Below, in pieces: positions 7,819-64,000 of a DNA stretch of 64,000 nucleotides (the first letter of the stretch is position 1; the number at the start of each line of letters is the position of its first letter). The notes under the pieces are model-generated. The model worked only from the letters and a program-made list of their open reading frames with translations. It had not been told where the DNA came from and did no database searches. Source of the DNA: Pleodorina starrii (taxonomy: Eukaryota; Chlorophyta; Chlorophyceae; Chlamydomonadales; Volvocaceae); assembly GCA_030267565.1 (NCBI GenBank), contig BRXU01000002.1:6329501-6393500 (forward strand), written 5' to 3'. The translations under genes were made by a program, and so were the position numbers.

Positions 7819-7890
7819 AAGCCTACCAGGGATCGAACCTGGAATCTCCGGTTCCGAAGACCGGCGCTTTATCCATTAAGCCATAGGCCC
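7819..7890 (-). tRNA. tRNA-Arg(TCG), anticodon variant
   Basis: Same framework as the ACG copies. The anticodon loop on the minus strand is CTTCGGA, so the anticodon is TCG, which still reads Arg codons (CGA, CGG by wobble). The rest of the cloverleaf is intact apart from the outermost acceptor pair, which is G-T. Confidence 0.82.
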
Positions 7891-41086: not shown

Positions 41087-42625
41087 CTACACCATCACCC
41101 ATGGACCGTTCCCCTGGCCCTTGGCCCGCAGCAGCTGATCCCGAAGCCCCCGACTCGCGAAAACCACCAACCACACACACCGGCGGCCCCAAACCCCTTT
41201 CGGCAAGCCCAGAATCAGCGCCAACCGGCCCGCCTCCGTCAGGCTCCACAGATAGCGGCGGCGCGCCTCATGCGCGTCGGTGACGTAGTGCGCCGCCACA
41301 TGCATGGCGACTATGGGCGCGAACCTGGCAGCCAGCGGTAAGGCCAGATCAACCGCTGCCGCCCACGGCGAGGACACCACCGCATCGAAAGGCCAAACGT
41401 CCTGAACTCGAAGGTAGAACCCCGGCTGCAGGGGGTCCTCATGCCTATCAGCCACATGACCGTCGAACGGATCGTTGCTGAACACCGGGTATCCCTTCTG
41501 CTGCAACGCCCGCACCACTGTCCCCTTGCCCGCCCACGGGTCAAGCACTCCCGCACACAGCCCGAAATCCACCGCCCGCACCAACGCCTCCACCTCATGG
41601 CCGTGCGCCTGGCGCGGCTCCGGGGTGAGCTCACCCACCCGGGTGCTGCGCCGCAAGTGCGCCAAGCCTCGAGGCAGCAAGTTGACGAACTTGGCCACTT
41701 GGCCGTCGGGGTACTCCGCTGCCGGAACGAGCTGGTCAAAAGCCGCTCGAGCTCCGGTCAGGCTGCCAAAATCCCAAATGTCCGGTAGCGCGCTGGTGCT
41801 GCCTGCAAGGCTGGTGCGCCGCCGTCGTGACGATGGTGATCCAGCACTCGACTCCGGCACGAGGTGCTTGCGAAGTGTCGCCATGGTCATGCGCTCCACA
41901 GCACCGTTGTCGTACGTGACCTCGTACTGCTGAGCACCGCTCCCTGGACCTAGGTAGCGGGCGACACCCTCGCAAACGGCCGCAGAGAGAGTGACGGGAT
42001 CCTTGACCCGCCGCCGCACGGCCCGCCCGTCAAGGGCTGCCGCCGCAGCTTGGTGGCGGCGCTGCTGCGCGTTGGGGAAGATGCTGGGCTGGGCCTCCGG
42101 CGCCACTGGCACCGGCTTTGCGTCAATCTGCGCCACTGTGATCCCTGCCGCCGCACAGTCGGGGCAGACCCAAGTGCCACTGGGCACCTGGGTGAGCTGC
42201 GGCCGCAAGCAGTGCATGTGCCAGCCCGTGCCGCAGCCGTCACACAGCAGCATGACCTCCTCCTGATCCGGGAACCCACAAACCTCACACGCCAGATCCG
42301 CCGGCGGCACCGCCAGGCGCGGGTCCACGATGGGGTCGAGGTCCGGCAGGTGGCACGGCCGGAGCTGGCTGACATGCTCCTTGCGCTCCGTGCCGCAGCG
42401 TCCGCGCAGCGTGACGACACCGGCGGGGCTGACCTGGACGACGCGTAGGACACTGTCCCGCGTCGGCGGCTGCAGGGTGCTGCTGCGATTGCGAGCCAGC
42501 ACATACACGTAGTCGCCCGGCTCAAACCGCTCGATGCGAGGCTCATAACCCCCAGCCCTGACCCGCGCGTACCGCTGCGTGTCCCGGTGCTGAGCGATGA
42601 GCAAATTGCCAGCGGCCTCCGGCAT
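41087..42625 (-). CDS. Integrase C-terminal stub, PHD finger, Tudor-like region and adenine/N4-type methyltransferase-like domain
   Basis: Residues 1-92 have the integrase C-terminal pattern (AQHRD, then a VGDYVYV-like strand, then KEHVSQLRPCHL). A canonical C4HC3 PHD finger follows: C113, C116, C128, C131, H136, C139, C154, C157. Residues about 221-256 resemble a Tudor fold (YEVTYDNGAVE). Residues about 355-500 show a methyltransferase layout: motif I VLDPWAGKGT (361-370), an acidic SNDP after the next strand, and a motif IV-like DAVVSSPW (415-422) where N6-adenine/N4-cytosine enzymes have (D/N/S)PP(W/Y). The frame is open upstream of the first Met (AELFQRLM). PHD fingers read histone tails. 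Catalytic activity is uncertain because the second motif IV residue is Ser rather than Pro. Confidence 0.82.
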   Translation of the reverse strand: MPEAAGNLLIAQHRDTQRYARVRAGGYEPRIERFEPGDYVYVLARNRSSTLQPPTRDSVLRVVQVSPAGVVTLRGRCGTERKEHVSQLRPCHLPDLDPIVDPRLAVPPADLACEVCGFPDQEEVMLLCDGCGTGWHMHCLRPQLTQVPSGTWVCPDCAAAGITVAQIDAKPVPVAPEAQPSIFPNAQQRRHQAAAAALDGRAVRRRVKDPVTLSAAVCEGVARYLGPGSGAQQYEVTYDNGAVERMTMATLRKHLVPESSAGSPSSRRRRTSLAGSTSALPDIWDFGSLTGARAAFDQLVPAAEYPDGQVAKFVNLLPRGLAHLRRSTRVGELTPEPRQAHGHEVEALVRAVDFGLCAGVLDPWAGKGTVVRALQQKGYPVFSNDPFDGHVADRHEDPLQPGFYLRVQDVWPFDAVVSSPWAAAVDLALPLAARFAPIVAMHVAAHYVTDAHEARRRYLWSLTEAGRLALILGLPKGVWGRRCVWLVVFASRGLRDQLLRAKGQGNGPWVMV

Positions 42626-42662
42626 CAGCCGCTGGAAGAGCTCTGCCCGACGCGTCAGGTGG

Positions 42663-43424
42663 TCATAGGGTTATAGGCAGCGCCTCTGGGGCGCTTTCTG
42701 TCACTGACCCACTGAGTCCAAGTATGAGCTCCAGCTGCTGCGCTGTCAGCGGCTCGGCTTCGATGAGGCCTGGCGGCGGTGAACCGAAGAGGTCGCCTGG
42801 CGGCAAGACAATTGGCCGCGCGCCTGGGACGTCACAGCGCAGGTACGGATCCGAGAGCGGTGACGCCAGCGGCGCGAGAGTGCGCCCCGGTAGCATACCC
42901 GAGAGCTCCGCCACGGGGCTGGCCCACGCATGTGAGCCGATCATGCGCGAAAGCCGCTTGGATTCCCCCAGGCTGGTGTACAGCGTCGCCAGGCCGTGCT
43001 GTCGCTGCCCCAAGCAGGCAAGGTCTACCAGGAAGTCATTGCCAAAGGCCGTGTCAGCGGTTGTGTCTCTAGCGATTTGCACGAAGTAACCCGGCAGCAG
43101 GCGCGGCTGTAAACGCTGCAGGGCGCCGATGAGCTGCAGAATGCGCCTGGCCCGCGGGTCGACGGCCGACTCGGCAGCTCCCACCACCAGCCACTGATGC
43201 TGTCTGGCGGCCCCCAAGTTGCGCAGCATGGCTTCCGTCACGTCACCGGACGTGGGGAGCTGATTGAAAGGGCTATATATGGACCGCAGAGGACCTGAGC
43301 TGATGCGGGTACTCAATCTCCAGCGCCCGCAGACGTTGGCGCAGCAATTTGAGCCCAGCCGGCGGCAGTGCGTCCGCGACATGATACGCACGCACGTGCC
43401 ACCCTGCTCGCAGAACAGCCTCAA
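42663..43424 (-). CDS. C5-cytosine-methyltransferase-like domain, C-terminal part, catalytic Cys absent
   Basis: The useful frame begins near 43310, continuing from the preceding RT frame after a frame change. The strand QWLVVG occupies the place of motif IV (usually LVVGGxPCQ), but the next residues are AAESAVDP, so the catalytic Cys is gone. A segment ESKRLSRMIGSHAW sits where C5 enzymes have the AxxHRxRxxW-type motif. The end (LTAQQLELILGLSGSVT) resembles the conserved ERExxxGFxxGxT-like tail. The assignment rests on motif order and on the fragment at the end of the RT ORF, so it is tentative. An alternative is an unrelated linker. Confidence 0.5.
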   Translation of the reverse strand: MRLFCEQGGTCVRIMSRTHCRRLGSNCCANVCGRWRLSTRISSGPLRSIYSPFNQLPTSGDVTEAMLRNLGAARQHQWLVVGAAESAVDPRARRILQLIGALQRLQPRLLPGYFVQIARDTTADTAFGNDFLVDLACLGQRQHGLATLYTSLGESKRLSRMIGSHAWASPVAELSGMLPGRTLAPLASPLSDPYLRCDVPGARPIVLPPGDLFGSPPPGLIEAEPLTAQQLELILGLSGSVTESAPEALPITL

Positions 43425-45294
43425 GGCCCGCCGCGTGGCTGCCGTACTCCACCACCACCAACCCCTCCGACAGCGCTTTCTCCAGGAAGTAATGCGAATT
43501 CAAGCTGCTATTCAGCGCGACGGTGACAGGGTCCTGCTCTGCTGATGCTGGCCGCTCCATAACCGGGGCGCGGGGTGGCTCGCAGGCGATGGCGTTGAGT
43601 GCAACCCGGTGCTCCCGCGCCAGGCGATTTGCATGCTGCACGAGCTGCCGCGTGGCAAGCTGAGTCGGAAGCAGCTCCTCCACTGGGCACCTGTCCACTG
43701 GGTCTGTCAACGTACCATTGTTGCCTGCCAGCAGCTCCTCAGCCGTGGGGAGCACACTGTTGCTCCCCACCGCGAGCGCAGCATGTAGTCGCTCACGTTG
43801 GGCCTGGGAGCGGGTGAGCAGGGCCTGGATGGGTCCGCTGAGGCTGGCCGCAGTGCCGGTGACGAGGGCGCGCGGGTACGGCACCAGCTGAGGTTTGGGC
43901 GGAACTGGGTCATCCTCCTCATCCATGCGCGAGCCCGTGCCGTCACCAGTACTCGGCCGCGGCATGCGGCTGAGCGCGTCAGCATTCTGGTGGAGCGCGC
44001 CCGGACGGTGAGTGATGTTGAAATCATACTGGCTCATGATCAGCTGCCACCGCTGGTAGACTCCGGCGCTGCCGGCGCCGGTGTTCTCCATGAGCCAGAG
44101 GAGCGGTGCGTGGTCAGTGACTAGCGTGAACTGCACGCCGTGCAGGTACGGCCGCATGGATTGCATCGCCCAGCACGCCGCAAGCATCTCTCCCTTGTAG
44201 CTGATGTAGTTCCGCTCGTGAGCGTTGAGCGAGCGGGGAACACACGCCACCAGGTACTCGTTGCCGTCATCGTCCAACTGACCGAGCACGCCGCTGATGC
44301 CACTGGCCGAGAAGTCCGTATGCAAAATGATGGGCCGTCCAGGCTGCAGCCGGCGCAGAATGAGCCCCTCCTGACGGAAATGCGCCTTGATCGCATCCAG
44401 CGCAGCTTGGTGCTCCGGCTGCCAAGTCTGCTCCCCCCACACGATGCCCTTGCGTGTGAGCTGGTTCAGCGGTGCCGCGATCTCACTGAAATGCGGCACG
44501 TAGCAGCGGTAGTAATTGCACAGCCCCAGCAGCGCTTGCAGCTCCGTCAGGTTGGTCGGCGGCTGCAGCGCCATGATGGCCGCACACTTGGCATCCATGG
44601 GCCTGACACCCATGGCCGAGCACATGTGCCCCAGGAACTCAACCTCCTCCGCAGCGATGATGGTCTTCTCTGGGTGCAGGCGCAGGCCGCACTCCATCAG
44701 GCACCGAAACACCGCCTCACAATGCTGCACATGCTCCTCCGCGGTGGCCGAAAATACCAGGATGTCGTCCACAAACGCCATAGCGAAGCCCTCGAGCCCG
44801 TGACGGCGAAGCTCGTGGTCTATGATCATTTGGAACTGCCCAGTTGTGTTGCGCAGGCCGTAGAGGTTGCACGTGTACATCCAGAGCTTCTCACGCCACC
44901 AGAATGACGTCTTCTCCTGATCCTCCCGGGCCAGCGGTATCTGGTTGAATGCTGCCCGGCAGTCCATCTTGCTGATCCAGGGCGAGCCCCCAATACGCTG
45001 AAACAGTTGCTCCGGGGTCGGCGGTGCGTAACGGTTCGGGACGGTGGCGGCATTGAGCGGCCGAGCATCACAGCAATAGCGGCGATCAGTCCACTGCCCG
45101 TTGGCGTCTTTCTTCGCAGGCATGGTGACGTTCATGGCGTACTTGGTGCTGCTGGACGGGACGATGATGCCGGCGTCCCGTAGCTCAGCGCACGTTTTCC
45201 TCCTGGATCTGGAGCTCCAAGGGGGAGTGCTGACGCTGCGGCTGCCAGATGGGCCGATCATGCACAAGCTCGATGCGCGCCGGCCCCATTTCAC
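43273..45294 (-). CDS. Reverse transcriptase and RNase H (Ty3/gypsy pol), running into a methyltransferase motif I
   Basis: The Met at 45294 is not the real start. The reading frame becomes meaningful at about residue 36 (AELRDAGIIVPS), following the RT N-terminus in another frame. RT catalytic aspartates are D111 and the FVDD box D176/D177. RNase H shows the full D-E-D-D set: D327, E369, D394 and D439. After a linker, residues about 610-655 (ALSEGLVVVEYGSHAAGLEAV, then GWHVRAYHVADA) look like motif I and motif II of a C5-cytosine methyltransferase. The ORF stops at 43273 after a frame change. RT and RNase H look catalytically complete in isolation. Confidence 0.92.
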   Translation of the reverse strand: MKWGRRASSLCMIGPSGSRSVSTPPWSSRSRRKTCAELRDAGIIVPSSSTKYAMNVTMPAKKDANGQWTDRRYCCDARPLNAATVPNRYAPPTPEQLFQRIGGSPWISKMDCRAAFNQIPLAREDQEKTSFWWREKLWMYTCNLYGLRNTTGQFQMIIDHELRRHGLEGFAMAFVDDILVFSATAEEHVQHCEAVFRCLMECGLRLHPEKTIIAAEEVEFLGHMCSAMGVRPMDAKCAAIMALQPPTNLTELQALLGLCNYYRCYVPHFSEIAAPLNQLTRKGIVWGEQTWQPEHQAALDAIKAHFRQEGLILRRLQPGRPIILHTDFSASGISGVLGQLDDDGNEYLVACVPRSLNAHERNYISYKGEMLAACWAMQSMRPYLHGVQFTLVTDHAPLLWLMENTGAGSAGVYQRWQLIMSQYDFNITHRPGALHQNADALSRMPRPSTGDGTGSRMDEEDDPVPPKPQLVPYPRALVTGTAASLSGPIQALLTRSQAQRERLHAALAVGSNSVLPTAEELLAGNNGTLTDPVDRCPVEELLPTQLATRQLVQHANRLAREHRVALNAIACEPPRAPVMERPASAEQDPVTVALNSSLNSHYFLEKALSEGLVVVEYGSHAAGLEAVLRAGWHVRAYHVADALPPAGLKLLRQRLRALEIEYPHQLRSSAVHI

Positions 45295-46087
45295 CGGTGT
45301 AGCAGCCCAGATCCTTGAGCGACCGCGCGAACACCTTGTCGTACCGCTGCATGAGTTCTTTGAACTGCGCTTTCACGGCCGGTGTCATGTCCGGCCGTTC
45401 ACACCAGGTAAAGCCGCCTTGCTCATCCTTGACGAACGTCGTGCCCTCCCCAGGATAGCGCTTGCCTTCCGGGGTGGTCATGGATGGGAGCGACGGGCCA
45501 GGTGCAAGACGGGCGCCAGCGGTCGGCTGGGGCGGCGCCGATGGTGGTGGCGGTGGCGGCGGCGGCGGAGGTGGTGCTGGCGGCGGCGGCGGTGGAGGCT
45601 GAGGCACCAGCGTCACCACTGGCGACGCTTGACCGTCCGGTGCTGGAGGAGGTGCTGGCGGTGCAGGCGGCGGCACTGGTGGCGCCACCGGCGACGACTG
45701 CCCAGCCTGCGCCGGCGGAGGTACTGGTGGTGTCGCTGCTGACTGGGATGGCGACGGCTCCGGCGGCGCACTCTGCCTGGAAAGCAGCTGCGCCAGCCCT
45801 CCCAGTTCCCCGACCGGCTCTGACTGCCTTGCCTGCTGCACGACCGGCCGGTGGGATTCCAGGTGGACGGCCGGGAAGGTACGGATGCCGTCCACCGGCG
45901 GGATGAACGGTGGCGTGCTCCCTGCATACCCATGCACGACCATCAGAAGGAGCAGTAACAGCGTCGAGCTGACGCTGCCGCACGTCCAGCGCTGGCTGCG
46001 GCCGGGGGCAACCGTGCTACCGTGGAAGTCGGCAGATGCTGTGTCGCCGCCGTCTGAAATGGCACTCCCGGTTGCAGCCCCTGGCAT
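45185..46087 (-). CDS. Proline-rich linker and N-terminal part of reverse transcriptase
   Basis: Contains a hydrophobic stretch (VSSTLLLLLLMVV, about residues 39-51) that could be a membrane segment or chance. Long PPPPAPP runs follow. The last 70 residues (MTPAVKAQFKELMQRYDKVF to QIQEENVR) are the fingers start of Ty3/gypsy RT. The RT continues in another frame from about 45190, so a one-base change splits the enzyme. Confidence 0.8.
   Translation of the reverse strand: MPGAATGSAISDGGDTASADFHGSTVAPGRSQRWTCGSVSSTLLLLLLMVVHGYAGSTPPFIPPVDGIRTFPAVHLESHRPVVQQARQSEPVGELGGLAQLLSRQSAPPEPSPSQSAATPPVPPPAQAGQSSPVAPPVPPPAPPAPPPAPDGQASPVVTLVPQPPPPPPPAPPPPPPPPPPPSAPPQPTAGARLAPGPSLPSMTTPEGKRYPGEGTTFVKDEQGGFTWCERPDMTPAVKAQFKELMQRYDKVFARSLKDLGCYTGEMGPARIELVHDRPIWQPQRQHSPLELQIQEENVR
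45530..45700 (-). repeat. GGC/GGT-rich low-complexity sequence encoding polyproline
   Basis: Triplet-like GGTGGCGGC repeats on the plus strand encode proline runs in the retroelement frame. Confidence 0.8.
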
Positions 46088-46383
46088 GCCCGCCTCGCGC
46101 GCAGCAGACGAGCCCGGAGGCGCTGCTGGCTCTGCGCGACCTGCTGCTTGTACTGACGTGCTTGCTCTGCGGCCTCCTGCATGATCCGGTGCTGACGGCG
46201 CGCGAGCTTCTTGCGGCGCCGCATCATGCGCTTCGCCAGCAGCACTTGCTGCTGGCGTATGCCCTGCTCATGCATGCGGAGCGCCTTCACGATGTCGCCG
46301 CCGCACTGATCGATCAAGCCCGCCGCCACGGCATCGCTGATGCCGCAGCGATACCGCAGGTACTCCACGGCGGCCGCTCGCAT
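45943..46383 (-). CDS. UBA-like helix bundle and basic coiled coil in the retroelement polyprotein
   Basis: Residues about 4-40 (EYLRYRCGISDAVAAGLIDQ, then CGGDIVKALRMHEQ) resemble a UBA/CUE ubiquitin-binding three-helix pattern. A strongly charged Arg/Lys/Gln helix follows (residues 40-95), probably coiled coil. The last 35 residues appear to be out of frame. The similarity to UBA is by eye only. Confidence 0.5.
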   Translation of the reverse strand: MRAAAVEYLRYRCGISDAVAAGLIDQCGGDIVKALRMHEQGIRQQQVLLAKRMMRRRKKLARRQHRIMQEAAEQARQYKQQVAQSQQRLRARLLRARRACQGLQPGVPFQTAATQHLPTSTVARLPPAAASAGRAAASARRCYCSF

Positions 46384-47032
46384 GACCTCCGCTGACGGCG
46401 GTGGTGGCGGTGGTGGCGGCGGTGGAGACGCTGGCGGCGGCGGCGGTGGCGGAGGTGGCGGTGGCGGAGGTGGCGCGCGGTGGCGGCGGAGACGCCGGCG
46501 GCGGCGGCGGTGGCGGTGGCGGAGGTGGCGGTGGCGGTGGCGGCTGCTCAGCTACGGTGCCATATACCTGGATGTCCGTCTCCTCCGTCCTTGCTCGAAT
46601 CGTGACTGGCTCGCCGCCGAACCCGCCGAACTGCACCGTCGGAACTGGCGCCAGCTGGTTGACATTTGCGCGGTTCCTCAGGAAGGTTTGACCCAGCACG
46701 ATGTCACAGTACTGGTCTGCGACGACGGGCCAAGGCTTAGCTGGGTCCGGATGCAGGACAATCCAGCGTTCCCCCAGCCGCAGGTGCAATTCTGAGCCGT
46801 CGATGCTGCCTGCTGACTCAGTTGGCCGCATGCAGCTGATAGTCGTGCAGCGCCACCGGCCTGCGGTTGTAGGGGTGCTGACGCCGCAGCAGCCACTTGG
46901 CGCTGACGGCGACGGTCCCGAAAAATCCCGTATCGACCCCCACTGTGCTCGCGTTGAGTACCATGGGCGGCCCCGCCAAGACGCCTGTCTTGCGGGCAAG
47001 GCAGGCTTGCAGTTGGCCCGGCTCCGGTCCAC
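46268..47032 (-). CDS. Second retropepsin-like domain, C-terminal half, and polyproline linker
   Basis: Meaningful from about SAGSIDGSELHLRLGERW. It contains CDIVLGQTFLR (plus strand about 46685-46715), the hydrophobic-hydrophobic-Gly motif that follows the flap in retropepsins. Polyproline follows, and then the frame is lost. The N-terminal half with its DTG triad is in the neighbouring frame (46818-47948). Confidence 0.7.
   Translation of the reverse strand: MDRSRANCKPALPARQASWRGRPWYSTRAQWGSIRDFSGPSPSAPSGCCGVSTPTTAGRWRCTTISCMRPTESAGSIDGSELHLRLGERWIVLHPDPAKPWPVVADQYCDIVLGQTFLRNRANVNQLAPVPTVQFGGFGGEPVTIRARTEETDIQVYGTVAEQPPPPPPPPPPPPPPPPASPPPPRATSATATSATAAAASVSTAATTATTAVSGGHASGRRGVPAVSLRHQRCRGGGLDRSVRRRHREGAPHA
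46400..46550 (-). repeat. GGTGGCGG low-complexity sequence
   Basis: Almost pure GGC/GGT repeats over about 150 bases. The retroelement frame switches here, and this is a likely place for slippage or assembly error. Confidence 0.85.
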
Positions 47033-47948
47033 AGTCCAGGATGGGCATGGTCACGTGCGGCCGGTCCTGGCCGGACGTGAGGCCGTGCGCGCGGATGTGC
47101 TGCAGCTGCGCCGCGTGGCTCGATCCTGCGGACATCGGGGCGTCGTCCGCAAAGGTGACACGGTGGGCCTGGGGCCTGTACCGCTCCTGGCTTGGGGCAC
47201 GGCTGCTGCCACGGCCCACCGGCTGTTCGCCCCGGCAGCCCGCACTGCGGGTCCGGGAGCGCGAGCGACCATGCACACGCCAGTCCTCTTCGCTGGAGGC
47301 GCTGTGGGAGCGGCGGCGGCCCCGGTAGTCAGGCCGAGGGCTGCGGCGACGGTGTCGGCCTGCTGGGCTGTGCCGCCGAGGCGGCGGCGATCGATCACCG
47401 CGAGGTGGCGAGCGCGGTGGTGACCGCACGCCGCGTGGTGGCGAGCGCGGCCGCGGGCTACGTGATGCGCGGCGCAGCATGCCCCTCACCGGCACCTCCC
47501 GCTGGCGCTGATCGGAGCCCTCTCGCTGGCCCCTGTAGCCCTCCGCCACACTGCGCTGCCCAGGCACCTCCTGCTCCTGACGCGCCGCCTCCTGCTGCCT
47601 CCGCCGCTGCGTGGCGGCCTCAGCCTCCCGGCGCGCCGCCTCGGCGCGCTTCCGAGCCTCGCTCTCCTGAGCCCGGCGGAACGCGTCGGCCAGGGTGTAG
47701 ACACCGATTGACGCCAGGGTCTGCCTGATCCGATGGACCTGGCGGCTGACACCAGTGTCCGTCACGCCCTCCTTGTTGACCAATTTCGCAGGATGAAGGT
47801 GCTCGAACACCCAGTCGGGCGGCAGCTCCTCGTCCATGTACAGATTCGGAGGAAACTGCAGGCGTGCCCGCAGGTCGCTGCTGAGCCCACCCGTCCCCTG
47901 GGCTGCCGGCACGGGCGCCCTGGATCCGCTGGGGCCCTCATGGGACAA
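46818..47948 (-). CDS. Arg/Ser-rich linker and second retropepsin-like domain, N-terminal half
   Basis: The first 90 residues continue the gag-pol frame after a frame change near 47950. A charged helical segment rich in R, E, A and Q follows (about 95-140). An RS/RSP-rich stretch (about 150-240) resembles SR-protein tails and is likely nucleic-acid binding. The last 80 residues contain GVDTGFFGTVAV, a DTG active-site triad in a hydrophobic context, which fits a retropepsin. It ends at 46818 where the frame changes. Confidence 0.7.
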   Translation of the reverse strand: MSHEGPSGSRAPVPAAQGTGGLSSDLRARLQFPPNLYMDEELPPDWVFEHLHPAKLVNKEGVTDTGVSRQVHRIRQTLASIGVYTLADAFRRAQESEARKRAEAARREAEAATQRRRQQEAARQEQEVPGQRSVAEGYRGQREGSDQRQREVPVRGMLRRASRSPRPRSPPRGVRSPPRSPPRGDRSPPPRRHSPAGRHRRRSPRPDYRGRRRSHSASSEEDWRVHGRSRSRTRSAGCRGEQPVGRGSSRAPSQERYRPQAHRVTFADDAPMSAGSSHAAQLQHIRAHGLTSGQDRPHVTMPILDCGPEPGQLQACLARKTGVLAGPPMVLNASTVGVDTGFFGTVAVSAKWLLRRQHPYNRRPVALHDYQLHAAN

Positions 47949-50900
47949 GGCTGGCCCCCTGAAGTCGCCGTGCCTGGCACCACCGCCCTCAGCGGGTGCC
48001 GGGTTGACTCCACGGTGCTGGGGTGCGCGGCTGCGGTGCTGGCCGCCCGATGCTTGCCGGTCGACGGCCTCGTGGCTGGGGCCCCCCGGCGGTGGCGCAG
48101 GAATCCGCGCCGCTCTCCTTGGTGCTGCGGCACCGGCCCACTGGGCGGCGCCTGCCCGCTGCCTGGCTGGTCAGGGTCGCCCTCATCAAGCAGCTCGACG
48201 TCAAGATACTCTTCAACCTCCACAGCGCCGAACCCCTGCTCCTCGTCCGCCTCCATGATCTCAGGGTTGTCGCCTACCCCCCTGGTCATGAGCACGGTCG
48301 CCGTGGCGCCAAGTGAAGCCAGAAGCCCGCGCGCGCACAGCACCTGCGACTCCTCCAGCGGCTCCATGGACAGATAGGCGGGGGCTTCTTGGGCATCCTC
48401 CGGCCAAATGCGGCAGTGCGGCACTGGGAACCGTTCCGCGTTCATGCGCAGGCGGTGGAGGAGATCCGTGCCGAGCAGCACCGAGAAGCCGCAGGCGTCC
48501 GCTGTCGCCTCGCTGACGACGATGAACACGCTGGTTGTCTCCACCTGCCACGGCGTGCCCGGCAGGTAGGTGAGGTGCAGCTGGACTTGCCCCAGAGGGG
48601 CCTGCGCGCCTGAGCCCGGCCCGTTGCCCGTGTTCAGACGCGTTGCCGTGGTCTGCACGCTGTACCCGGCCTGGCGTGCCACCTTGACCGACACCAGCCC
48701 CACGGACGAGCCAGTGTCGGGTAGCACCGAGAGACCCTCCCACAGCAGCGCGTCACCCTTGAACTCCCGGACGGCGATGGAAGTGCAGGGCGCGCGGTTG
48801 CGCAGGCGGTGTATGCCATACGAGGCCCCTCGGTACCCGTCGTCCAGGCGCTGGCGCTGATCCGGCGGCATGGCGGCGTACATGCCCACGGTGACGACCG
48901 CAGGGTCCGCGTCCGGGTGCTGCGGGTGCCACGAGCTGCCCGCCGGCACAGCCACTGGCTGTCCAGCACCCCCGCCACTGGACGGGGTGGGCGCAGCAGC
49001 TGCCAAGGCACTCACCACGGGTCCACCGGCGGCGTCTGCCACTGAGGAAGCACCGCCAGCCTGCGGGTCGGAGATCGCGGCCGCGCAGGGCACCTGCTCT
49101 GGCGCCTCCGCAGCGTCGCCGGCCGGTGCAGCGGTTGGGCAGGGAGACGGTGGAGCGGCTTGGGCTGGCTCCTCGGTGCTCTGCTGGGTTGGAGCGGTCG
49201 CCACGCGGAGGAACGCCTCCAGGAACTGAGGCCACTGGGCCTGCAGCTCACGGGGGGCATGGGCGCCGAGCTCCACCTCGCGCACGAGCCCATCTGGTCC
49301 AAGAACTGACAGCCTCAGCACACCGTTGACGCCACGTGGCTGCAGGGCCCGTGCCTGCGTCGGCAGCAACGCAGGCTGCAGCTGCGCGAAGCCCTGAGGG
49401 AAGGCCTCACGCCCTGCAAGCGAAGTGCTCGGCCAGCCCGCGTCCGTCAGGCCGGGCGGTGCGGCACGGGCTGCGGCTGGGGCTGCACAGTCGCCCGCCT
49501 GATCAGCAGCAGCCTGCTGCTGGCGGCGCTGATCGGCGGCCGTGATGACCAGCGAGGTCGCCACCGCCGGCGCCGATGGGGCGCTGTCCCCGAAGGCGGC
49601 GCCGACTGCTGAGTTCCCTCCCCAGCTGGCTGAACCCAGGCCGGTACCGTTGAGCGCCGGGCCAGAGGGAGGCGCATCGCCGCGTGGCTGGGGTCGCTGC
49701 ACGACGACCGTGATCCGCGCCCGCTCCAGACCCACGGGGCGGGAGACCATGGTCGTGGCGTAGTCCGCCGCCTCCACGTCTTCCACCCCACGCGTGGCGA
49801 GCGTGGTCGACTGGCGGCGGCACGGTGGCGGCGGCGGACGCTTGTTGGCGGTGCGCTCCCCGGCCCGCTGGGCCGCGAAGCAAAAGTCCCGGCTGTGAGT
49901 GGCCCGGTTGCCCTCGCACCCCGGGTAGTCACACGGGGGCATGCTGCCCGTGATGGGGCCGGGCTCCGACAGCTTGTGGCGGTCCCCCCTGCTGGCGCCG
50001 CCGCTCGAGCTGCCGTTGCCGCTGCCGCTGTTGCCGTTGCCGGTGGCCTTGCCGCGTTGGTCGGTCCGGCTGTCCGCCTGGCGCTGCGACTGCTGCGGCG
50101 GCCGTGACGATGAGGCACCAGCACCGGAGCTGGCCCGCTGGGCCAGGGCGGTCATGGTGGTGGTGAGCTGGTTTAGCTGGGCCTGCATGTCACGCATCTG
50201 CTTGGCTAGGCCGTCACTGCCGGCCTGCTCCGTGGTCGAGAGCACACGCTCCGATTTACGCCGTGACGCCTGCTCCTCTGCCGCAGTGAACGCCAGCATG
50301 GAGTTTGCGTAGTAGTGGTTGGCAATCGCCACCACGAAGTCCAGGGTCCAGCCCTTGGACCGAGAGTTGCCCCCACTGGACCGCACGAACTCCTCGCTGA
50401 TGTAGTTCTTCATCCTCTCGTCGTGCAGACCATGCCAAAACCAGCGCGCCAGGTCATGCTGGCTGACAGTGCCCTCCTGCAGGCGTGCGGCGAGGGCCTT
50501 GTAGCGCTCCGAAGCCGTGTGCGGGGCCTCATTTGCGCGCTGCTTGAACGACACCATGGCCTCCTTGGCCTTGGGGTCAGCTATGTCGTACTGCGCGGCC
50601 GCCCGGTCCAGGAAAAAGTCCCAAAGGTCTGGCACGCTGGTGCCATCGGGCTTCTTGAACGCCGCGCCCTGATAGTCGGCCTCCGCCTTGCCGGCCGCCA
50701 CCCAGGCAGCCAGGTGGTCGGCCTCAATCTCCTCCGCGTGCTCCTCGCACCACGTGGCAAAGACCGTTACCTCGCCACGCTCCTCCTCAGAAGCCCCATC
50801 CTTGCCTGGCTTGGGTTGCATGATGCCGGTCTTGCCGGTGAAGATCGTGAAGAAACGCTTGAGGACGGCCTCCACCTTGTTCAGTTGCCCGAAGAGCACC

Positions 50901-51577
50901 ACCGTCGCCTTGTACCCCTTGATACGTTGACGGTATGTCCGAAAGGCGCCAGGAGCGCCATCGTAACGCGGCGGGTCCCACGCTGAGCTGTTCTGCATGG
51001 CACCGTCGCTGATGTCGAACACGGCGCTAGCCGGGTCCTTCACAGCTCCGAGAGACGGCGGTGGGACAGGCGGTGGACGAGGCGGATCGTCCTCACCCTC
51101 TGACGACGCTGCGGTGGGCTCTAGCCCGCGGCGCAGGTCAGGCTGCTCCCCAGCCGCGCTGGCAGGCTGGGGTTGGGTGTCGGCTGTGACCACAGCGCCG
51201 ACCCCTGCAGCTGAAGTACTTGGTCCGGCACCGCTGGTGCCGGCGCCTGAGACGGAGGCGATCGACGGCCTTGCGACTTGCATAAGCCGGGATGGAAGCC
51301 CTCCAGCGACTTGAAACTCTTGACCACCAGGCTCCGAGGTGGTTGTCGAGCGGTCGTCGCTCAGATCTTGGTCTACCCTTTGCCTGGGTGACGGTGGGGC
51401 AGTGCCGGACCGTCCGTCAGCAAGTGCACGCAACGCTTGCTGCTGTGCAATGAGCTCCTTTTGAGTGCAACGTGCCTCGTAGCGCTCAGCGTGGGTAAGT
51501 GAGCGAGACTTAACCGGGGTCAGGAAGGGCAGCGCCTTCACCACGTCGTCGACCGACTGACTAGGTTTAGGAGCCAC
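47762..51577 (-). CDS. Gag and aspartic protease (gag-pro) of the retroelement
   Basis: 1271 codons; the last 60 or so are probably out of frame. The N-terminal third is low complexity. Residues about 200-430 form an alpha-helical gag core (YDGAPGAFRTYRQRIKGYKA, DLWDFFLDRAAAQYD, LARWFWHGLHDERMKNYI). A Gln/Ser/Gly-rich tail follows, with a zinc-knuckle-like CxxxxC-x6-H-x4-C near residue 550 (CDYPGCEGNRATHSRDFC). Near residue 950 the motif LPDTGSSVGLV is a classical retropepsin triad, followed about 80 residues later by VLLGTDLLHRL. Gag would pack the RNA and the protease would cut the polyprotein. The ATG at 51577 is the first in frame after the leader. Confidence 0.87.
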   Translation of the reverse strand: MAPKPSQSVDDVVKALPFLTPVKSRSLTHAERYEARCTQKELIAQQQALRALADGRSGTAPPSPRQRVDQDLSDDRSTTTSEPGGQEFQVAGGLPSRLMQVARPSIASVSGAGTSGAGPSTSAAGVGAVVTADTQPQPASAAGEQPDLRRGLEPTAASSEGEDDPPRPPPVPPPSLGAVKDPASAVFDISDGAMQNSSAWDPPRYDGAPGAFRTYRQRIKGYKATVVLFGQLNKVEAVLKRFFTIFTGKTGIMQPKPGKDGASEEERGEVTVFATWCEEHAEEIEADHLAAWVAAGKAEADYQGAAFKKPDGTSVPDLWDFFLDRAAAQYDIADPKAKEAMVSFKQRANEAPHTASERYKALAARLQEGTVSQHDLARWFWHGLHDERMKNYISEEFVRSSGGNSRSKGWTLDFVVAIANHYYANSMLAFTAAEEQASRRKSERVLSTTEQAGSDGLAKQMRDMQAQLNQLTTTMTALAQRASSGAGASSSRPPQQSQRQADSRTDQRGKATGNGNSGSGNGSSSGGASRGDRHKLSEPGPITGSMPPCDYPGCEGNRATHSRDFCFAAQRAGERTANKRPPPPPCRRQSTTLATRGVEDVEAADYATTMVSRPVGLERARITVVVQRPQPRGDAPPSGPALNGTGLGSASWGGNSAVGAAFGDSAPSAPAVATSLVITAADQRRQQQAAADQAGDCAAPAAARAAPPGLTDAGWPSTSLAGREAFPQGFAQLQPALLPTQARALQPRGVNGVLRLSVLGPDGLVREVELGAHAPRELQAQWPQFLEAFLRVATAPTQQSTEEPAQAAPPSPCPTAAPAGDAAEAPEQVPCAAAISDPQAGGASSVADAAGGPVVSALAAAAPTPSSGGGAGQPVAVPAGSSWHPQHPDADPAVVTVGMYAAMPPDQRQRLDDGYRGASYGIHRLRNRAPCTSIAVREFKGDALLWEGLSVLPDTGSSVGLVSVKVARQAGYSVQTTATRLNTGNGPGSGAQAPLGQVQLHLTYLPGTPWQVETTSVFIVVSEATADACGFSVLLGTDLLHRLRMNAERFPVPHCRIWPEDAQEAPAYLSMEPLEESQVLCARGLLASLGATATVLMTRGVGDNPEIMEADEEQGFGAVEVEEYLDVELLDEGDPDQPGSGQAPPSGPVPQHQGERRGFLRHRRGAPATRPSTGKHRAASTAAAHPSTVESTRHPLRAVVPGTATSGGQPCPMRAPADPGRPCRQPRGRVGSAATCGHACSFLRICTWTRSCRPTGCSSTFILRNWSTRRA

Positions 51578-52405: not shown

Positions 52406-53520
52406 ACAAGGGGTTGGTGTCGGCTTCCTTGAAGCCGGAAAAAGGGCGGGGCCCCACTAAATCCGTACGGGTTAAGTTGAGTGCTAGGGTGGCGAGGGCG
52501 TGAAGTAGTGTGAGAGTGTCGACATTCCTGTTGATAGACAGCCAGAGCTTTTTCCCGAAATGCCTGCTAGCCGAGTCGTTAGCAAGGCCTGCCGGCGCCG
52601 CACGAAGCGCGTCATCCCGTCGGGTGCATGAGCGCATGTGCGCATCGACCGAAATACGGCATTTCCAAAGCGAGCGGCGAGGGCGTCAAATGTGAGAGTG
52701 TCGACATTCCTGCTGATAGGCAGCCAGAGCTTTATATCTGAAATGCCTGCGGCTTCAGCAATCCGACCCATGTTTAGCATCGCGCGCCGTCTTGGCACTG
52801 TGCAACTCTTCCGGCCAGCGCATTGGCTGAAGTTACTTGACAGTAGACATGGAGTGTATCATTTACACATCACGCAGGCTGACTTGCCAATAGAAGGACA
52901 GCGGAACTGTTTGCGAGGGTTGCGACGACGTGCAGTTGCCGACGAGAGTGCACAGGCTTCGCTACTGAGGTATTCACCGTAGAGGAGGCTTGACTGCTTT
53001 AACATTAGGACAGGGAATGTAGAAGTCCATCCCCTAGGTTGCCGACTGGACTTGTTGGGCGGCCCGCTGAAGACCGCTGCATCATGCGTGCATTTGCGGC
53101 TTGGCGTCCAACAACCAGCAGTTTGCCCCTCATGGTTTGCTCCTTGCAACCTTTGTAATCGAAATGTGCGTCAAGTCGGTCGGACCGGGTAGCAGAGCTG
53201 TGGTGTGGTCGCGGGAAGAATGTTCGCAATGCAAACATAGTTGGTTGCCGAAACGAAGATTCATTTCACGCCGTCATGTCAGAAATCCACTTTGAGGAAC
53301 GATGAATCTTCTGGAAATAATTATAGGCCGAGAGGCGTTGGTTTGACCTTGGCCTCGGTCCATGGAGACTGCCGAACTGGTTTTTACTCGTGCGATGTTG
53401 GGTTCCAATAATAAATTTACCGTGCAATAAAGAATGTAATCTTTTACTTATGCAGTATTTCCGTTGGCCGAGATTCTGCACTTTTGTTAGGACACCACGG
53501 TTCACAGTCCACACGGACAT
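52406..53520 (+). mobile_element. Hairpin element copy 14, long type, 3'-truncated
   Basis: Starts ACAAGGGGTTGG and follows the long-type sequence. After 53460 it diverges and loses the heptamer array and the GC terminal hairpin, ending around CACACGGACATG. Confidence 0.8.
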
Positions 53521-54309
53521 GACACGTGTTGCCTGCGGCAACACTGCCCGGAGCAATTTGAAACGGTCGCACCGGGCGATGGGAGGGGGGTACGGCAGGA
53601 GGCGGGTAGGGGGTTTGCACGTGTTGGGTGTGGCCTGCAGTGCGTTTTTGTCCTCAGCGAGGGATGTTACAAGGACGGGGAAGGCGAAGAGGCCAACAAG
53701 CAACACCAGGGCCAACACTTGGGGCAAGCAGGCCCCAAGAGCAACCGCCCCGTGGCATGACTGAACATTAAGTATCCCGGGCCCCGGGGGCACCCCCGGC
53801 GCGAGAGGGTGTCCATGCCGGTGTCACGGCCGCAATCCCCTGCTCCCACAAATCCCAAGGGAATCCGCCACCCCCCCCCCCCCCCGGGCGTAAGGGAGTC
53901 CGCGGCCATGCAAGCCTCGCCCGCCGTAAGCTCCAGCTCCAGGGGTGCAGCGTGTCGCTCAGGAAATGGGGTGCCGGTGCCCCATACAGTTGCCTCCCCC
54001 TCTGCGTGCCCACCGTTTGTGTTGAGCGCTGGCTGCCCTGCCGGCCCATAAATATGCTAGCCGTCCCCATCTGGCCCGTATTGGGTTTTTGGTGTGCTGT
54101 GAGCCCCACCCCGTACCCCTCGAAGCCGCTTGTCTCTTCTCGGCCGCACGGTGCACCCTGACTGACCGACTCCTCTGCGAGTGCTGTGTCTTCCCCCTTT
54201 GGCCAGGACCCTCGTGCAACACAGCACCTCCCGGCCGATTCAGCGACGCGTGCCGTCCCTGTCCCCTTTGCCATGCACTCACTGCCTGAGGCACGTGACG
54301 CCCAGTTCC
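53521..54309. other. Unassigned GC-rich sequence
   Basis: No gene recognised. Contains the short perfect hairpin TGTTGCC-TGC-GGCAACA (about 53527-53543) and a C run of about 17 near 53871-53887. ORFs here are products of composition. Confidence 0.5.
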
Positions 54310-54890
54310 TTTGTGCCCGGTCCCGTGCGTGGTGCACCCCTCCCCTGCAGACCCCACGGTGTGCGCCGCCCCCCTTTCCCCTTGGCTCTGTTTCTCGTGT
54401 GGTGCACTCTCCCCGTGGTGCACGCCACCACCCTTCTCCTTATACGGTATTCGGTCTCACACTCAATGCACCCCTCCTGGCAACCCCAGCGGCGCACACT
54501 ACCCTCCTCCTTTCCCACCCTGTACTCGATGCCGCACGCCATGCGTCCCCTCCTGCTGTCCGAGCGGCGTGCATCACCCTTTCCTGTTTCCCCATGGACT
54601 CGATCCGCACGTGGTGCACCATGCCTCAGCGGCGCACGCCGCCCCCCCCCCCCCGGTCCCTTGGTAATTGGTCTCGCGCGTGATGCACCCCTCTTTGGCC
54701 GACCCCACGGTGCGTGTCGCTTCCCCTTTCTGCCTTGTGCCATATTCCGTGTGTGATGCACCCCGCCTACAGCCCCCCCGGTGCGCACCACCCTTTCCCC
54801 CCGAACCCGGCCCCGTGCGAGATGGGCCCCCCGCTGCCGTACCCACGGTGCACGCCACCCCTCCCCGTTGGAACCGGTCCCACGCGCAAC
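54310..54890. repeat. Degenerate CT-rich minisatellite, period about 60-75 bp
   Basis: About eight imperfect units share GTG(A/T)TGCACCCCTC, then CCC(A/C)CGGTGCGC, then CACCCTTTCC. This explains the long open minus-strand frame across the region. Confidence 0.7.
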
Positions 54891-56326
54891 TTGCCCTTGC
54901 ACAGTTGTGAACGACCTGTGTGTGGCGGTATCCGTCTCCCGTGTCGCCTGCCGCTCCCCGTGGCCTTGGCCTGAGACCCCTGTCCTTCCCGTAAGCCCAG
55001 GCTCGTCGTGCTGACTGACCTGGCCCGCGCGGGCCGAGCCTTCAACCTTGGTGTCCGGGGGCGGTGGCTCTGTTACTTGACGTGTGGGGCTGTTGCCCGG
55101 CAGCCGCAGGCCCAAGCCTTGTCTCCCCATCTCGGTGTTTGGCAACGGTCCTCGACTAGCGATGTTGAGGCGTGGCATGGTGTTGTTTTGCCTCGTTTCC
55201 AGAAGCCGCATGGTCCCGCTCATTGACAACAGGTGCGCCATAGCTCCGAGGATAAGTGTGACGAGCACTGTACGCCCTGGGCCCCAGTTTGCCATTATAC
55301 TAAATGTTGTCGCAGGCGTCTGCTTTGTCTGAATGCAGTTTGGCACCGAAACGCCAAGCATTTCGCTGTCATGAGCGTCATCATAAGCGTCGTCGTACCA
55401 CCGACACCCCATCGGTGAAGCCGCGCTTACAGCATGCCCTAGCGGGATGTCAGTAGTACTGATTGTATGCCGTTACGCTTATTTTTTAGGCCGCCTTAAG
55501 GCCATTGAACATGTTGCAACCGCTGCCGGCTGCGACCTATCTGATACTGAGCTTTTGTCAAACTGTCATATGCAACATAATTCCATGTCATGTTTGTTTA
55601 TGTGCCGGCGTACAAATTTGCTGAAGTTACCCTCTCAGGTCGCTATCCGTTTGTGAATGTATTGCGACCGGCGCCTGAGGTCGCGCCGCATCGTGCAATG
55701 CACGTTGTTTACAATGCGGCATTGACTGCAATTGAAAGACTTCATTGGAGGCGTTCTGGTCGCGCGCCGGTGGGTCGCTCGTCCATGGAGCCTTTGAATG
55801 GCTGCGACGTGGGCGTGCCTGGCTCTCCGACACGGAGGCAGCCATCAATAATATAGAATGCTGATTCCTAGAAATTTCGGTGGCCAGAAGTCGCAAAAGA
55901 CGAGTGCGTTTGGCGACACCACATTTTTTTGGGGGTATGCAGTCCCTTCGCAATCTACGATTGCTCCGGGAATTGCTCCGGGAACATCAGGGGGGGGGCA
56001 GGAAATCAAAAAAAATACCCCACGCTCGAAATCGAAAGCTTTTTGCATAAGGAGTCCAAATATGCTTTCAGAAGTGAATTTGGACCTGGGTATAAAAAGT
56101 TATGGCCTGTCAAAGTTGGTTGTACGGCAGGGGGGTGGGTGGGTGGGTATGGCTCTCGGAGACTTTCTTCCATACCCTTTCAAACTTTTTCTACAACGCT
56201 CAAAATGTAAAACTAACTTCACAAAGCAAGTCCTTGATGTCATATCTATCATTTCCCCATATCAGGGGCACTATAGCGTACTGCGTTAAGTCGGAACTTT
56301 GTGCATGCACATGTCGAGTGACGGCT
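54891..56326. other. Unassigned sequence with G-quadruplex motif
   Basis: No recognised gene. A TATA-like GTATAAAAAG lies near 56091. A run of G-tracts separated by single T (about 56130-56150) fits a G-quadruplex on the plus strand. Confidence 0.45.
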
Positions 56327-56602
56327 ATGGACGATAACGACAAACCTACATCTTCTCCCATAAATAAGAAGCCCCGAAAGGACGAGCATACTTTGGGTGC
56401 GGGTGGTGGTGCTTACGGGAACCCGGCTAGAGTGTCGCATCTGAAGGTGCCATGCCTCCGTGGGTGCGGAGCCCTCCTTCCGGAGAACATAAACGACGCA
56501 AACTTGGAGAGGCACCACGCTAGTGCAGCGTACAAGCAAGGGCGCGCAGACGGGAAGGCATGGAGTGATGCCGCCAAGTACTTCCCGAGTTCGCTTTCCT
56601 GA
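56327..56602 (+). CDS. Possible small protein, 91 aa, Cys/His motif
   Basis: ATG at 56327 to TGA at 56600-56602. The sequence is polar and basic at the N-terminus (a nuclear-localisation-like INKKPRK). A CLRGCG pair of cysteines is followed after 17 residues by HH (LERHHA), which resembles a C2HH-type zinc-binding unit. A TATA-like box sits about 235 bases upstream. I do not recognise a family. It could be part of a transposase or a chance ORF. The longer frame opening upstream at 56102 looks non-coding. Confidence 0.35.
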   Translation: MDDNDKPTSSPINKKPRKDEHTLGAGGGAYGNPARVSHLKVPCLRGCGALLPENINDANLERHHASAAYKQGRADGKAWSDAAKYFPSSLS

Positions 56603-56949
56603 CTACTGTCGATTGAAATGCATTTGACATGTTGAGACATTATTTTCGTGCAGTTGACTTTGGGATAAAACGGTTTGGTTGTTTGTTTGGAAGTGGACAA
56701 ACAAAGACATTACACCTCTCGGTCGGCACTCTTGACTTGCATTCGCGTACGTTTGTAAATATTCATGACCGAAATGACAGGATTTCGCTAGTTGCGATGG
56801 CGGTTTGCGAAAAACGCGTTAATTTGTCCTGTTTTACGACAACCGTACAGCATCGTACGGTACGGCAGGGGTGGGTGGGTGGTCTGGGGGGGGTCCGCCA
56901 ACATTTTTAGCGTGGGGTCTGAAACTAAATTTCTTACCCGCCCCCCTGG
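56603..56949. other. Unassigned sequence, second G-rich tract
   Basis: No gene seen. A TACGGCAGGGGTGGGTGGGTGG tract near 56866 resembles the G-rich tract at about 56126, as if related ends flank 56126-56890. Confidence 0.4.
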
Positions 56950-57010
56950 GAACATGGGCAATCCTACAGGGCGGGGCCCCCCTGGGCGCTTCGCGCTGGG
57001 GCCCCGCCCA
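56950..57010 (+). mobile_element. Hairpin element copy 15, terminal hairpin only
   Basis: Only the last 61 bases (ACATGGGCAATCC and the GC hairpin, ending CCCCGCCCA) remain. They join AAAACATTACC of a core, the same target site as at 37242/37243. Confidence 0.8.
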
Positions 57011-59403: not shown

Positions 59404-59820
59404 ACCCTAAGTGGTTTGCGTCATTTGTGTCGTTTGCGTCACCTAAGTGGGGGTCCCAGGGGGTGAGGGGCCTGTACGACAGGGAGGGGCGGGGAGGGGT
59501 AAGTGAGGAGCAGACTCATTAAGTGGGGTGGGGGGACGCAATGAGTGGGGCCAGACTCTATTAATTGGTTTGCGTCATTTGCGTCGTTTGCGTCACCTAA
59601 GTGGGGGTCCCAGGGGGTGAGGGGACTGTACGACAGGGAGGAGCGGGGAGGGGTAAGTGAGACGCAGACTAATTAAGTGGGGTGGGGTGACGCAATGAGT
59701 GGGGACAGACTCTCCTAAGTGGTTTGCGTCACTTGCGTCATTTGCGTCACCTAAGTGGGGGTTCCAGGGGGCCAGGGGACTGTACGACAGGGAGGGGTAA
59801 GTGAGACGCAGACTCATTAA
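59404..59820. repeat. Minisatellite, period about 154 bp
   Basis: The segment CACCTAAGTGGGG recurs at 59440, 59594 and 59748. Each unit carries TTTGCGTCATTTGCGTC, a GGGAGGGG tract and CTGTACGACAGGGAGG. Confidence 0.8.
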
Positions 59821-59839
59821 GTGGGGTGGGGGGACGCAA

Positions 59840-60030
59840 AATAGAGTGGGTTGCATCGATTGAGTGTGGGGCTGGACGCAATGACTGGGCCGGGGACTCA
59901 ATACCGGTAGAGTGGGTTGTGTCGATTGAGTGTGGGGCTGGACGCAATGAGTGGGCCGGGGACTCAATAGAGTGGGTTGCGTCTTTTAAGTGTGGGGCTG
60001 GACGCAATGAGTGGGCCGGGGACTCAATGT
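59840..60030. repeat. Minisatellite, period about 60-66 bp
   Basis: Three units start GAGTGGGTTG near 59844, 59910 and 59969, each containing TGTGGGGCTGGACGCAATGA and GGGGACTCAAT. The repeated peptide that can be translated from it is a by-product. Confidence 0.8.
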
Positions 60031-60099
60031 TGAGTCTAAAACACCAGACGCAGACTGAGTCTGGCCTCTTGACGCAAAAGCAGACTTAGGCCAGACTTA

Positions 60100-61938: not shown

Positions 61939-62437
61939 GCTCGGCCGACCTTTGCTGGGCTTCGCCTGGCTCGCGTGTCTCAGCTACCCCGTCGCACGGA
62001 GCCGCCGCCGCTTCCGGGTTATTACTCACGGGGGCTGGTTAAGGCGCAAGGGGTGATGGACGCCGCGCTTGCCGACACCACCCGCCGTCGTCAGGAGGCG
62101 GCCGCCTCCGAGTTGTCCTCGTGGGTCAACGGCGTCGGCGAGGGGGTGTGGCTGGGCAACGTCACACCCGAATACCTGCTGGTCTACTTGGTGGAGAGGT
62201 GGGAGCCAAACCACCCGGGCCGCAAGCAACCGGAACCCGGCCCGGACGCAGTGCAGGGCGTACTGTCTTCGCACAGCGGCTGGTTTATGCGGCTTGGCCG
62301 CGTGGGCCCTTACAACCCCATCACGGGTGAGGGCAATCCTTGCGACAGCCCTTGGGTCTCCGACTACCGTGCGGGCTACAAGCGGCTGCAGATGTTGGCT
62401 GTGTACGAGGAGGTCTCCGTGGTGCCGCTCCCACCCG
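61939..62437 (+). CDS. Tyrosine-recombinase-like protein, N-terminal part (split by insertion)
   Basis: The frame is open from 61939 to the hairpin-element insertion after 62437. No ATG occurs before about residue 39, so the true start may lie beyond an intron. Visible segments include SSWVNGVGEGVWLGNVTPEY, YLVERW and SPWVSDYRAGYKRLQML, in a layout like the SAM/core-binding N-domain of tyrosine recombinases. After the insertion the frame resumes at 63640 exactly in phase. It is probably the recombinase of a DIRS- or Crypton-like element. Confidence 0.6.
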
Positions 62438-63639
62438 ACAAGGGGTTGGTGTCGGCTTCCTTGAAGCCGGAAAAAGGGCGGGGCCCCACTAAATCCGTAC
62501 GGGTTATTAAGTTGTGTGCTAGGGCGGCGAGGGTGTCAAGTGTGAGAGTGTCCTGACAGTCCTGCTGTTATTAGACAGCCAGAGCTTTTTCCCGAAATGC
62601 CTGCTAGCCGAGTCGTTAGCAAGGCCTGCCGGCGCCGCGCGAAGCGCGTCATCCCGTCGGGTGCATGAGCGCATGTGCGCATCGACCGAAATACGGCATT
62701 TCCAAAGCGAGCGGCGAGGGCGTCAACTGTGAGAGTGCGGCGTGTCGACATTCCTGCTGATAGGCAGCCAGAGCTTTATATCTGAAATGCCTGCGGCTTC
62801 AGCAATCCGACCCATGTTTAGCATCGCGCGCCGTCTCGGCACTGTGCAACTCTTCCGGCCAGCGCATTGGCTGAAGTAGACATGGAGTGTATCATTTACA
62901 CATCACGCAGGCTGACTTGCCAATAGAAGGACAGCGGAACTGTTTGCGAGGGTAGCGACGACGTGCAGTTGCCGACGAGAGTGCACAGGCTTCGCTACTG
63001 AGGTATTCGCCGTAGAGGAGGCTTGACTGCTATAACATTAGGACAGGGAATGTAGAAGTCCATCCCCTAGGTTGCCGACTGGACTTGTTGGGCGGCCCGC
63101 AGAAGACCGCTGCATAGGGCTGCATCGTGCGTGCATCGGCGGCTTGGCGTCCAACAACCAGCAGTTTGCCCCTCATGGTTTGCTCCTTGCAACCTTTGTA
63201 ATAGCAATATGCGTCAAGACGATCGGACCGGCTAGCAGAGCTGCTGTGGTGTGGTCGCGGGAAGAATGTTCGCAATGCAAACATAGTTTGTTTCCGAAAC
63301 GAAGATTCATTTCACGCCGTCATGTCAGAATTCCTCTTTGAGAAACGATGAATCTTCTGGAATTAATTATAGGCCGAGAGGTGATGGTTTGACCTCGGCC
63401 TCGGTCCATGGAGACTGCCAAACTGGTTTGTACTCATGCGATGTTGGGTTCCAATAATAAATTTACCGTGCAATAAAGAATGTAATCTTTTACTTATGCA
63501 GACTTTCCGTTGACCGAAAGTCTACACTTGTCCAATTACTTCCCAGAACCCAGAACCCAGAACCCAGAACCCAGACACGGACATGGGCAATCCTACAGGG
63601 CGGGGCCCCCCTGGGCGCTTCGCGCTGGGGCCCCGCCCA
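62438..63639 (+). mobile_element. Hairpin element copy 16, long type, complete, inside recombinase ORF
   Basis: Representative full copy, 1202 bp. It starts ACAAGGGGTTGGTG, followed by hairpin CGGCTTC-CTT-GAAGCCG and AAAAAGGGCGGGGCCCC. The middle is non-coding and AT/GC mixed. Near the right end are four CAGAACC heptamers (about 63543-63573) and CACGGACATGGGCAATCC. A long hairpin ends it (GGGCGGGGCCCC, loop with GCGC-TTC-GCGC, GGGGCCCCGCCC), then A. The target is CCCG|AAAAG with no duplication. The ends share the subterminal inverted repeat GGGCGGGGCCCC. There is no protein, so it must be moved by something else. Confidence 0.9.
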
Positions 63640-64000
63640 AAAAGTACGAGCGCTTGTGCGAGTACTTGTTGGGCCAGGTGGAGGCGGCGCCGGACGCCCG
63701 CACGGAGTTGCTCTACTGCCGCAACCTGCTCTGCGCGCAGTTCATGTACCAGACTGCATCGCGCGGTTTCGACACTGGCCGGCTGGGGCTGGGCGACTAC
63801 TGCGATCCGGCGCAACCCAACCTGCCAGACGGGCGGCTACCTCTGCCGCCGCCGTGGGACTGGGCGGCTGGAAAGTCGTACGTGCTGTGCGTGCGGCAGC
63901 GCGCCACCAAGACCTTTCGGCTCCAGCAAGCTCCCGCTGCATATCTGCCGCCGAACTTCGCTCGCCCGGCGCTGTGCTTTCCCCAGACGCTGGCTCGCTA
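63640..64000 (+). CDS. Tyrosine-recombinase-like protein, middle part (runs off window)
   Basis: The frame is open from the insertion to the window end (119 codons). RNLLCAQFMYQTASRGFDTG, followed directly by RLGLGDYCD, has the length and pattern of the first catalytic box of tyrosine recombinases (TGLRxSELxxLxxxD), with an Arg in the expected place. The remaining catalytic residues (HxxR, Tyr) would lie beyond 64000. Family assignment is tentative. Confidence 0.6.

Follow-up and report, generated by a model that had tools for sequence, protein, structure and literature searches.

A protein-less transposable element of very probable Helitron2 type at TTTT|T/C sites in Pleodorina starrii

Within the window (the whole 64-kb stretch of Pleodorina starrii DNA analyzed here), positions 890-39992 hold an array of tRNA-Gly(GCC) and tRNA-Arg genes, with a unit of ~1.5 kb that is longer where elements have inserted. 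All 35 tRNA genes found across the whole window lie on the minus strand; one tRNA-Arg of the array (7818-7890) carries the anticodon TCG, the others ACG. Retroelement-like ORFs on the minus strand at 41087-51577 include a PHD-finger protein with integrase-bearing relatives and a weak aspartic-protease match, and the minisatellite blocks at 59407-60035 have repeat units of 154 bp and 60-66 bp. The element under study is situated in a repeated host sequence family (62360-63719; 27 genome rows) that is apparently protein coding across the junction. A BLAST search against the window returned 17 full or partial pieces of its family, in agreement with the approximately 16 copies estimated by a first-pass annotation of the sequence; in our tally, 52406-53483 and 56952-57010 count as one broken copy, while the halves of nested copies are counted apart. 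The copies referred to below are listed here, with a vertical bar marking the insertion point.

62438-63639, minus strand: named copy, 1202 bp, reading TGGGCG...CCTTGT from 5′ to 3′ on the minus strand
2303-3302, plus strand: 1.0-kb copy at CTCCG|AAAACTG
3691-4935, plus strand: 1.2-kb copy at GGTTTG|AAAATG
14714-15709, minus strand: copy nested inside another family copy, site CCCTCG|AAAACTAA
36017-37242, minus strand: copy at CCAAGG|AAAACAT, preceded by two extra As
52406-57010, minus strand: paralogue of the 36017 insertion, lacking the extra As and split by ~3.5 kb of other DNA

The CTCCG|AAAACTG site of the 2303 copy is also filled at 6076-7075, 8603-9602, 16354-17345, and 21226-22225, and the nested arrangement at 14714-15709 recurs at 19552-20582 within the array. 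Elements inside the tRNA units were amplified along with the array, and several window copies therefore have one common site. The foreign DNA that splits the 52406 paralogue (53484-56951, ~3.5 kb) contains a 377-aa ORF on the minus strand (54279-55412) without a Pfam match. The element itself was correctly described as noncoding: stop-free stretches do not exceed 99 aa in the named copy or 139 aa in the 1000-bp 2303 copy.

On the plus strand, the named copy starts with ACAAGGGG and finishes with CCCCGCCCA, exactly the ends that had been assigned to the family. The end hairpins, subterminal inverted repeats, and internal minisatellite attributed to it were likewise all present in this copy, at the following positions.

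63598-63638, minus strand: 5′ hairpin, formed by the 12-bp repeat GGGCGGGGCCCC, which is one base away from the 5′ end, and its partner GGGGCCCCGCCC (sequence, DNA fold)
62476-62487, minus strand: 3′ inverted repeat GGGGCCCCGCCC, 38 bp from the 3′ end (sequence)
62471-62475, minus strand: internal TTTTT between the 3′ repeat and the 3′ hairpin, which gives the element an internal target of TTTT|Y type (sequence)
62453-62469, minus strand: 3′ hairpin with a 7-bp stem and a 3-nt loop (DNA fold)
63542-63575, plus strand: 7-bp minisatellite CCCAGAA, 4.9 units (repeat analysis)

The minus strand starts with a T followed by GGGCGGGGCCCC, and a 15-nt 3′ tail (62438-62452) follows the 3′ hairpin. Both hairpins folded more stably than most shuffled sequences: the 5′ hairpin reached -19.6 kcal/mol (z -2.57), an energy matched by 3 of 200 shuffles, and the 3′ hairpin -10.4 kcal/mol (z -2.03), matched by 8 of 200. 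Runs of at least 14 nt of either of two related 7-bp units were found in 19 of 35 copies. Two classes of element could be set aside from this anatomy. A canonical Helitron1 is expected to show 5′-TC...CTRR-3′ ends and A/T insertion, whereas the ends here read TG...TTGT and the site TTTT|Y, and a cut-and-paste element (MITE) does not match an inverted repeat that is subterminal at one end and insertions without target duplication.

The genome (136 Mb, 95 contigs) was then searched with both ends, giving 709 exact matches to the 33-nt ACAAGGGG end (3′) and 564 to the 38-nt ...CCCCGCCCA end (5′), two counts to be compared with the reservation that the 38-nt left-end pattern misses a variant present in the 2303 and 3691 copies; the reversed-pattern controls returned 0 matches each. 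AAAA directly followed 522 of the 564 exact 38-nt (CCCA) ends and was absent after 42, and A or G directly preceded 702 of the 709 exact ACAAGGGG ends. Among 48 distinct 40-nt flanks on each side, some of which are not independent, the base at -1 was G in 31 and A in 17, and the four bases after the element were A in 48, 45, 47, and 48 cases. As the base at -1 can be either purine, the site is R|AAAA and not strictly the G|AAAA first proposed, of which the AAAA side was borne out. R|AAAA was present at 34 of 35 distinct two-sided insertions, the exception being A|ATAA. This sample was not random: it was drawn from the window, the top 8 matches, and the ends listed first for contig C1, an end was left out if no exact partner lay within 1.6 kb of it, and the tRNA array contributes one site twice. 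By comparison, RAAAA starts at 0.22% of window positions. Read on the element strand, the site is TTTT|Y; since the element both begins and ends with T, the cut can also be placed one base over.

Uninterrupted versions of the CTCCG, GGTTTG, CCCTCG, and CCAAGG sites were read directly within the window. For the CACCCG site of the named copy, the window contained no empty version even when 4 mismatches in 24 were allowed, but the joined 158 nt of this site aligned without interruption in 21 of the 27 genome rows (91-98%) and, at 75%, in one further row (at the level of the alignment). Uninterrupted versions, stated earlier for five of the six sites within the window, were seen there for four sites and, for that of the named copy, in the genome alignments. 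No matching other side could be found for pairing with the CTCTTG end at 16029; therefore, five two-sided sites were confirmed instead of six. The empty sites of these five indicated that insertion occurs without target duplication, and in the 35 flank pairs a repeat of at least 3 bases was lacking in 33, with 33.9 expected from mismatched pairs. One site called for a correction: the 36017 copy reads CCAAGGAA|..|AAAA, with two As beyond its empty site. Its paralogous insertion at 52406-57010 reads CCAATG|..|AAAACAT, without the two As, and for this reason we set aside a 2-bp duplication; a later change in either copy is possible. The comparison of flanks and empty sites suggested in the first-pass annotation, carried out on sampled genome copies, accordingly revealed no consistent duplications and a purine|AAAA bias at distinct sites.

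One-ended, 5′-truncated copies with duplications have been published for CRe-1/2/3 of Chlamydomonas (PMC3627910). Among 32 end rows of the present family (30 distinct sites), we found no flank repeat of at least 8 bp within 1.5 kb, a weak negative that does not favor such copies here. Repeats of 7 bp occurred in four rows, and 16 of the 988 mismatched controls had repeats reaching 8 bp. In twelve of the 32 end rows, corresponding to 10 distinct sites, the locus contained no exact 5′ end, in some cases just because this end is further out or mutated.

A Rep/helicase element sharing both ends, for which a search had been suggested in the first-pass annotation, was identified among long end-to-end spans on another contig (C1:5005933-5014340). 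This 8408-bp relative is flanked by CCCTTTT|..|TATGG, and its similarity to the 1202-bp element covers the first 63 bp (98.4%), a 462-bp stretch close to the 3′ end (93.5%), and the final 89 bp (91%); its 3′ repeat is altered to GGGGCCCGCAC. A 13.8-kb span on C1 turned out to consist of two ~2.7-kb units, made up of a shortened element and host DNA, and then of the 8.4-kb element. The 1.2-kb form retains the first 63 bp and parts of the 3′ region of the 8.4-kb element, from which it was probably derived by internal deletion, judging from the sequences.

In the relative, HLHG and YYTSKYTSK occur in a Rep-like ORF, a frame contains the Walker A motif GPPGTGKS, and an ORF has DUF6570 (E 7.6e-13). 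Helitron_like_N scored below the cut-off on this Rep (22.6 and 21.1 versus 28.9 bits; 1.4e-4). In Volvox carteri, a protein that UniRef labels Helitron helicase shows 56% identity to the Rep. Two further copies of the Rep were found at 96-97% and a broken fourth at 68%; the copy on C2 has an exact family 5′ end 5.1 kb upstream in the correct orientation. Four more loci (C36, C33, C2, and C22) match the Rep with E values of 4e-17 to 1e-10, and these pass the Helitron_like_N cut-off. The copy on C4, in a stretch analyzed up to but excluding its 3′ end, has a 1332-aa open frame and ~1.1 kb that is absent from C1, with a DEVAM motif; the C1 relative thus lacks part of the helicase frame found in C4. 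The motifs in the C1 and C4 frames are ones that we take to be ATPase/helicase motifs, and because a Pfam scan of the C4 helicase-like piece named no helicase family, the helicase was assigned from motifs alone. The predicted fold of the Rep domain (mean pLDDT 35.9) was not used, and a search of solved structures returned one row that was not meaningful (E 0.91). For a window ORF, the nearest named proteins come from Volvox reticuliferus, Tetrabaena, and Gonium, with 54-63% identity for the closest matches of this ORF and of the Rep, which points to a volvocine green alga as the likely host. A locus with a stronger Helitron_like_N match (C1:3598538-3599056) has a 1548-aa open frame, with neither family end within 1.5 kb on each side.

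Taken together, we are highly confident that the named copy is a protein-less member of a Helitron2-type family that inserts at TTTT|T/C without duplication and is likely copied by the predicted Rep/helicase of a larger, end-sharing relative. The earlier Helentron/Helitron2 reading was right in substance, given the Rep-encoding relative with family ends and a target and anatomy that match published Helitron2. The family appears to be new, and elements of its kind have already been described in Chlamydomonas. As described in PMC3627910, Helitron-1N1_CRe of Chlamydomonas reinhardtii, a nonautonomous Helitron2, inserts between TTTT and T/C without target duplication, and it and Helitron-1N2_CRe resemble the present family in insertion after TTTT, absence of duplication, 5′ and 3′ hairpins, asymmetric inverted repeats, and a 5′ T. 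Compared by description and not by sequence, they are shorter, at 657 and 673 bp versus ~1.0-1.2 kb here (PMC3627910). The 5′ inverted repeat of Helitron2 lies 0-2 bp from the end and has a hairpin, as does the 12-bp repeat found here one base from the end, and its 3′ inverted repeat lies upstream of the 3′ hairpin, the arrangement also found here. The distance of 38 bp between 3′ repeat and 3′ end exceeds the approximately 20 to 30 bp stated for Helitron2 (PMC3627910) and falls within the 38-60 bp given for HINEs (PMC4067079). The Helitron2-like FoHeli1 and 2 of Fusarium oxysporum also have noncanonical ends and asymmetric inverted repeats but differ in target, inserting between TNAT and T; joined-end PCR products of FoHeli suggest a circle (PMC5148889). 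Helitron2 elements are reported from all species studied in PMC8226300.

The alternative that fared best, a HINE in the strict sense mobilized by a Helentron whose Rep/helicase is fused to an AP endonuclease, appears very improbable. Published Helentrons, HINEs, and DINE-1 do share subterminal inverted repeats, a 3′ palindrome, a T-rich target, absence of duplication, and, in some families, tandem repeats (PMC4067079, PMC7492417; HINEs carrying tandem repeats in PMC7492417), and a HINE-like family had accordingly been proposed for these copies. However, the endonuclease domain defines Helentrons (PMC4067079), and scans of C4 pieces and of 13 of the 15 ORFs of at least 200 aa in the C1 relative detected no endonuclease family. 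In addition, PMC5148889 gives TTTT|Y as the target of Helitron2 and TT as that of Helentrons. Since no endonuclease was found in the scanned ORFs, the element fits Helitron2 better than a Helentron derivative in the strict sense.

Spread mainly through amplification of larger host repeats instead of transposition is still less probable. Several window copies do have one common site through the tRNA array, and three copies on C20 are spaced about 8.6 kb apart, but the sample contains 35 distinct two-sided flanks. These include copies on C15 and C22 that are 99.92% identical over 1210 bp and lie in unrelated flanks. With three other copies that are 99.5-99.75% identical, near-identical copies at unrelated sites suggest that transposition was recent. 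A distinct class with poly-A-adjacent targeting and no relation to Helitrons, raised earlier on account of the strict four-A target and the short copies without an ORF, is scarcely credible, as the ends are held in common with a Rep-encoding relative and the identical target, already published for Chlamydomonas Helitron2, makes a separate class superfluous.

For the Helitron2-type family, a route of transposition can be proposed from the published Helitron2 model. The Rep would nick the element at its 3′ end, beside the 3′ hairpin, and rolling-circle replication would run through the element until a stop at the 5′ end that may be marked by pairing of the 5′ and 3′ repeats. The copy would then be joined to the target at TTTT|Y; as this would involve no staggered cut, no duplication would arise.

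The family ends were also found next to each other. Among the matches listed, six exact head-to-tail junctions read GCCCA|ACAAGG, and in five further junctions, read on one side, a complete 33-nt 3′ end lies right before another ACAAGG end; these five fit insertion at the internal T5. In the window, the copy at CCCTCG|AAAACTAA is nested within another family copy. Self-insertion is the simplest reading of the junctions, although rolling-circle concatemers could equally give the six. Each insertion restores TTTT|T at the 5′ edge and brings a TTTTT tract within the 3′ end; new copies could therefore land head to tail or inside old 3′ ends. We tentatively consider it possible that the family reuses its own T-tracts as landing pads and that tandem and composite elements grow by such self-targeting.

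Among the titles listed in a literature search outside Repbase and most subscription journals, none dealt with this particular family, which may be catalogued in those sources. The copies make up a large Helitron2 set that has apparently been active recently; it has a sharp target and is linked to a relative encoding a Rep. While the picture of the class is unchanged, this set may be of use for studying how Helitron2 chooses TTTT|Y and how the end hairpins stop replication.
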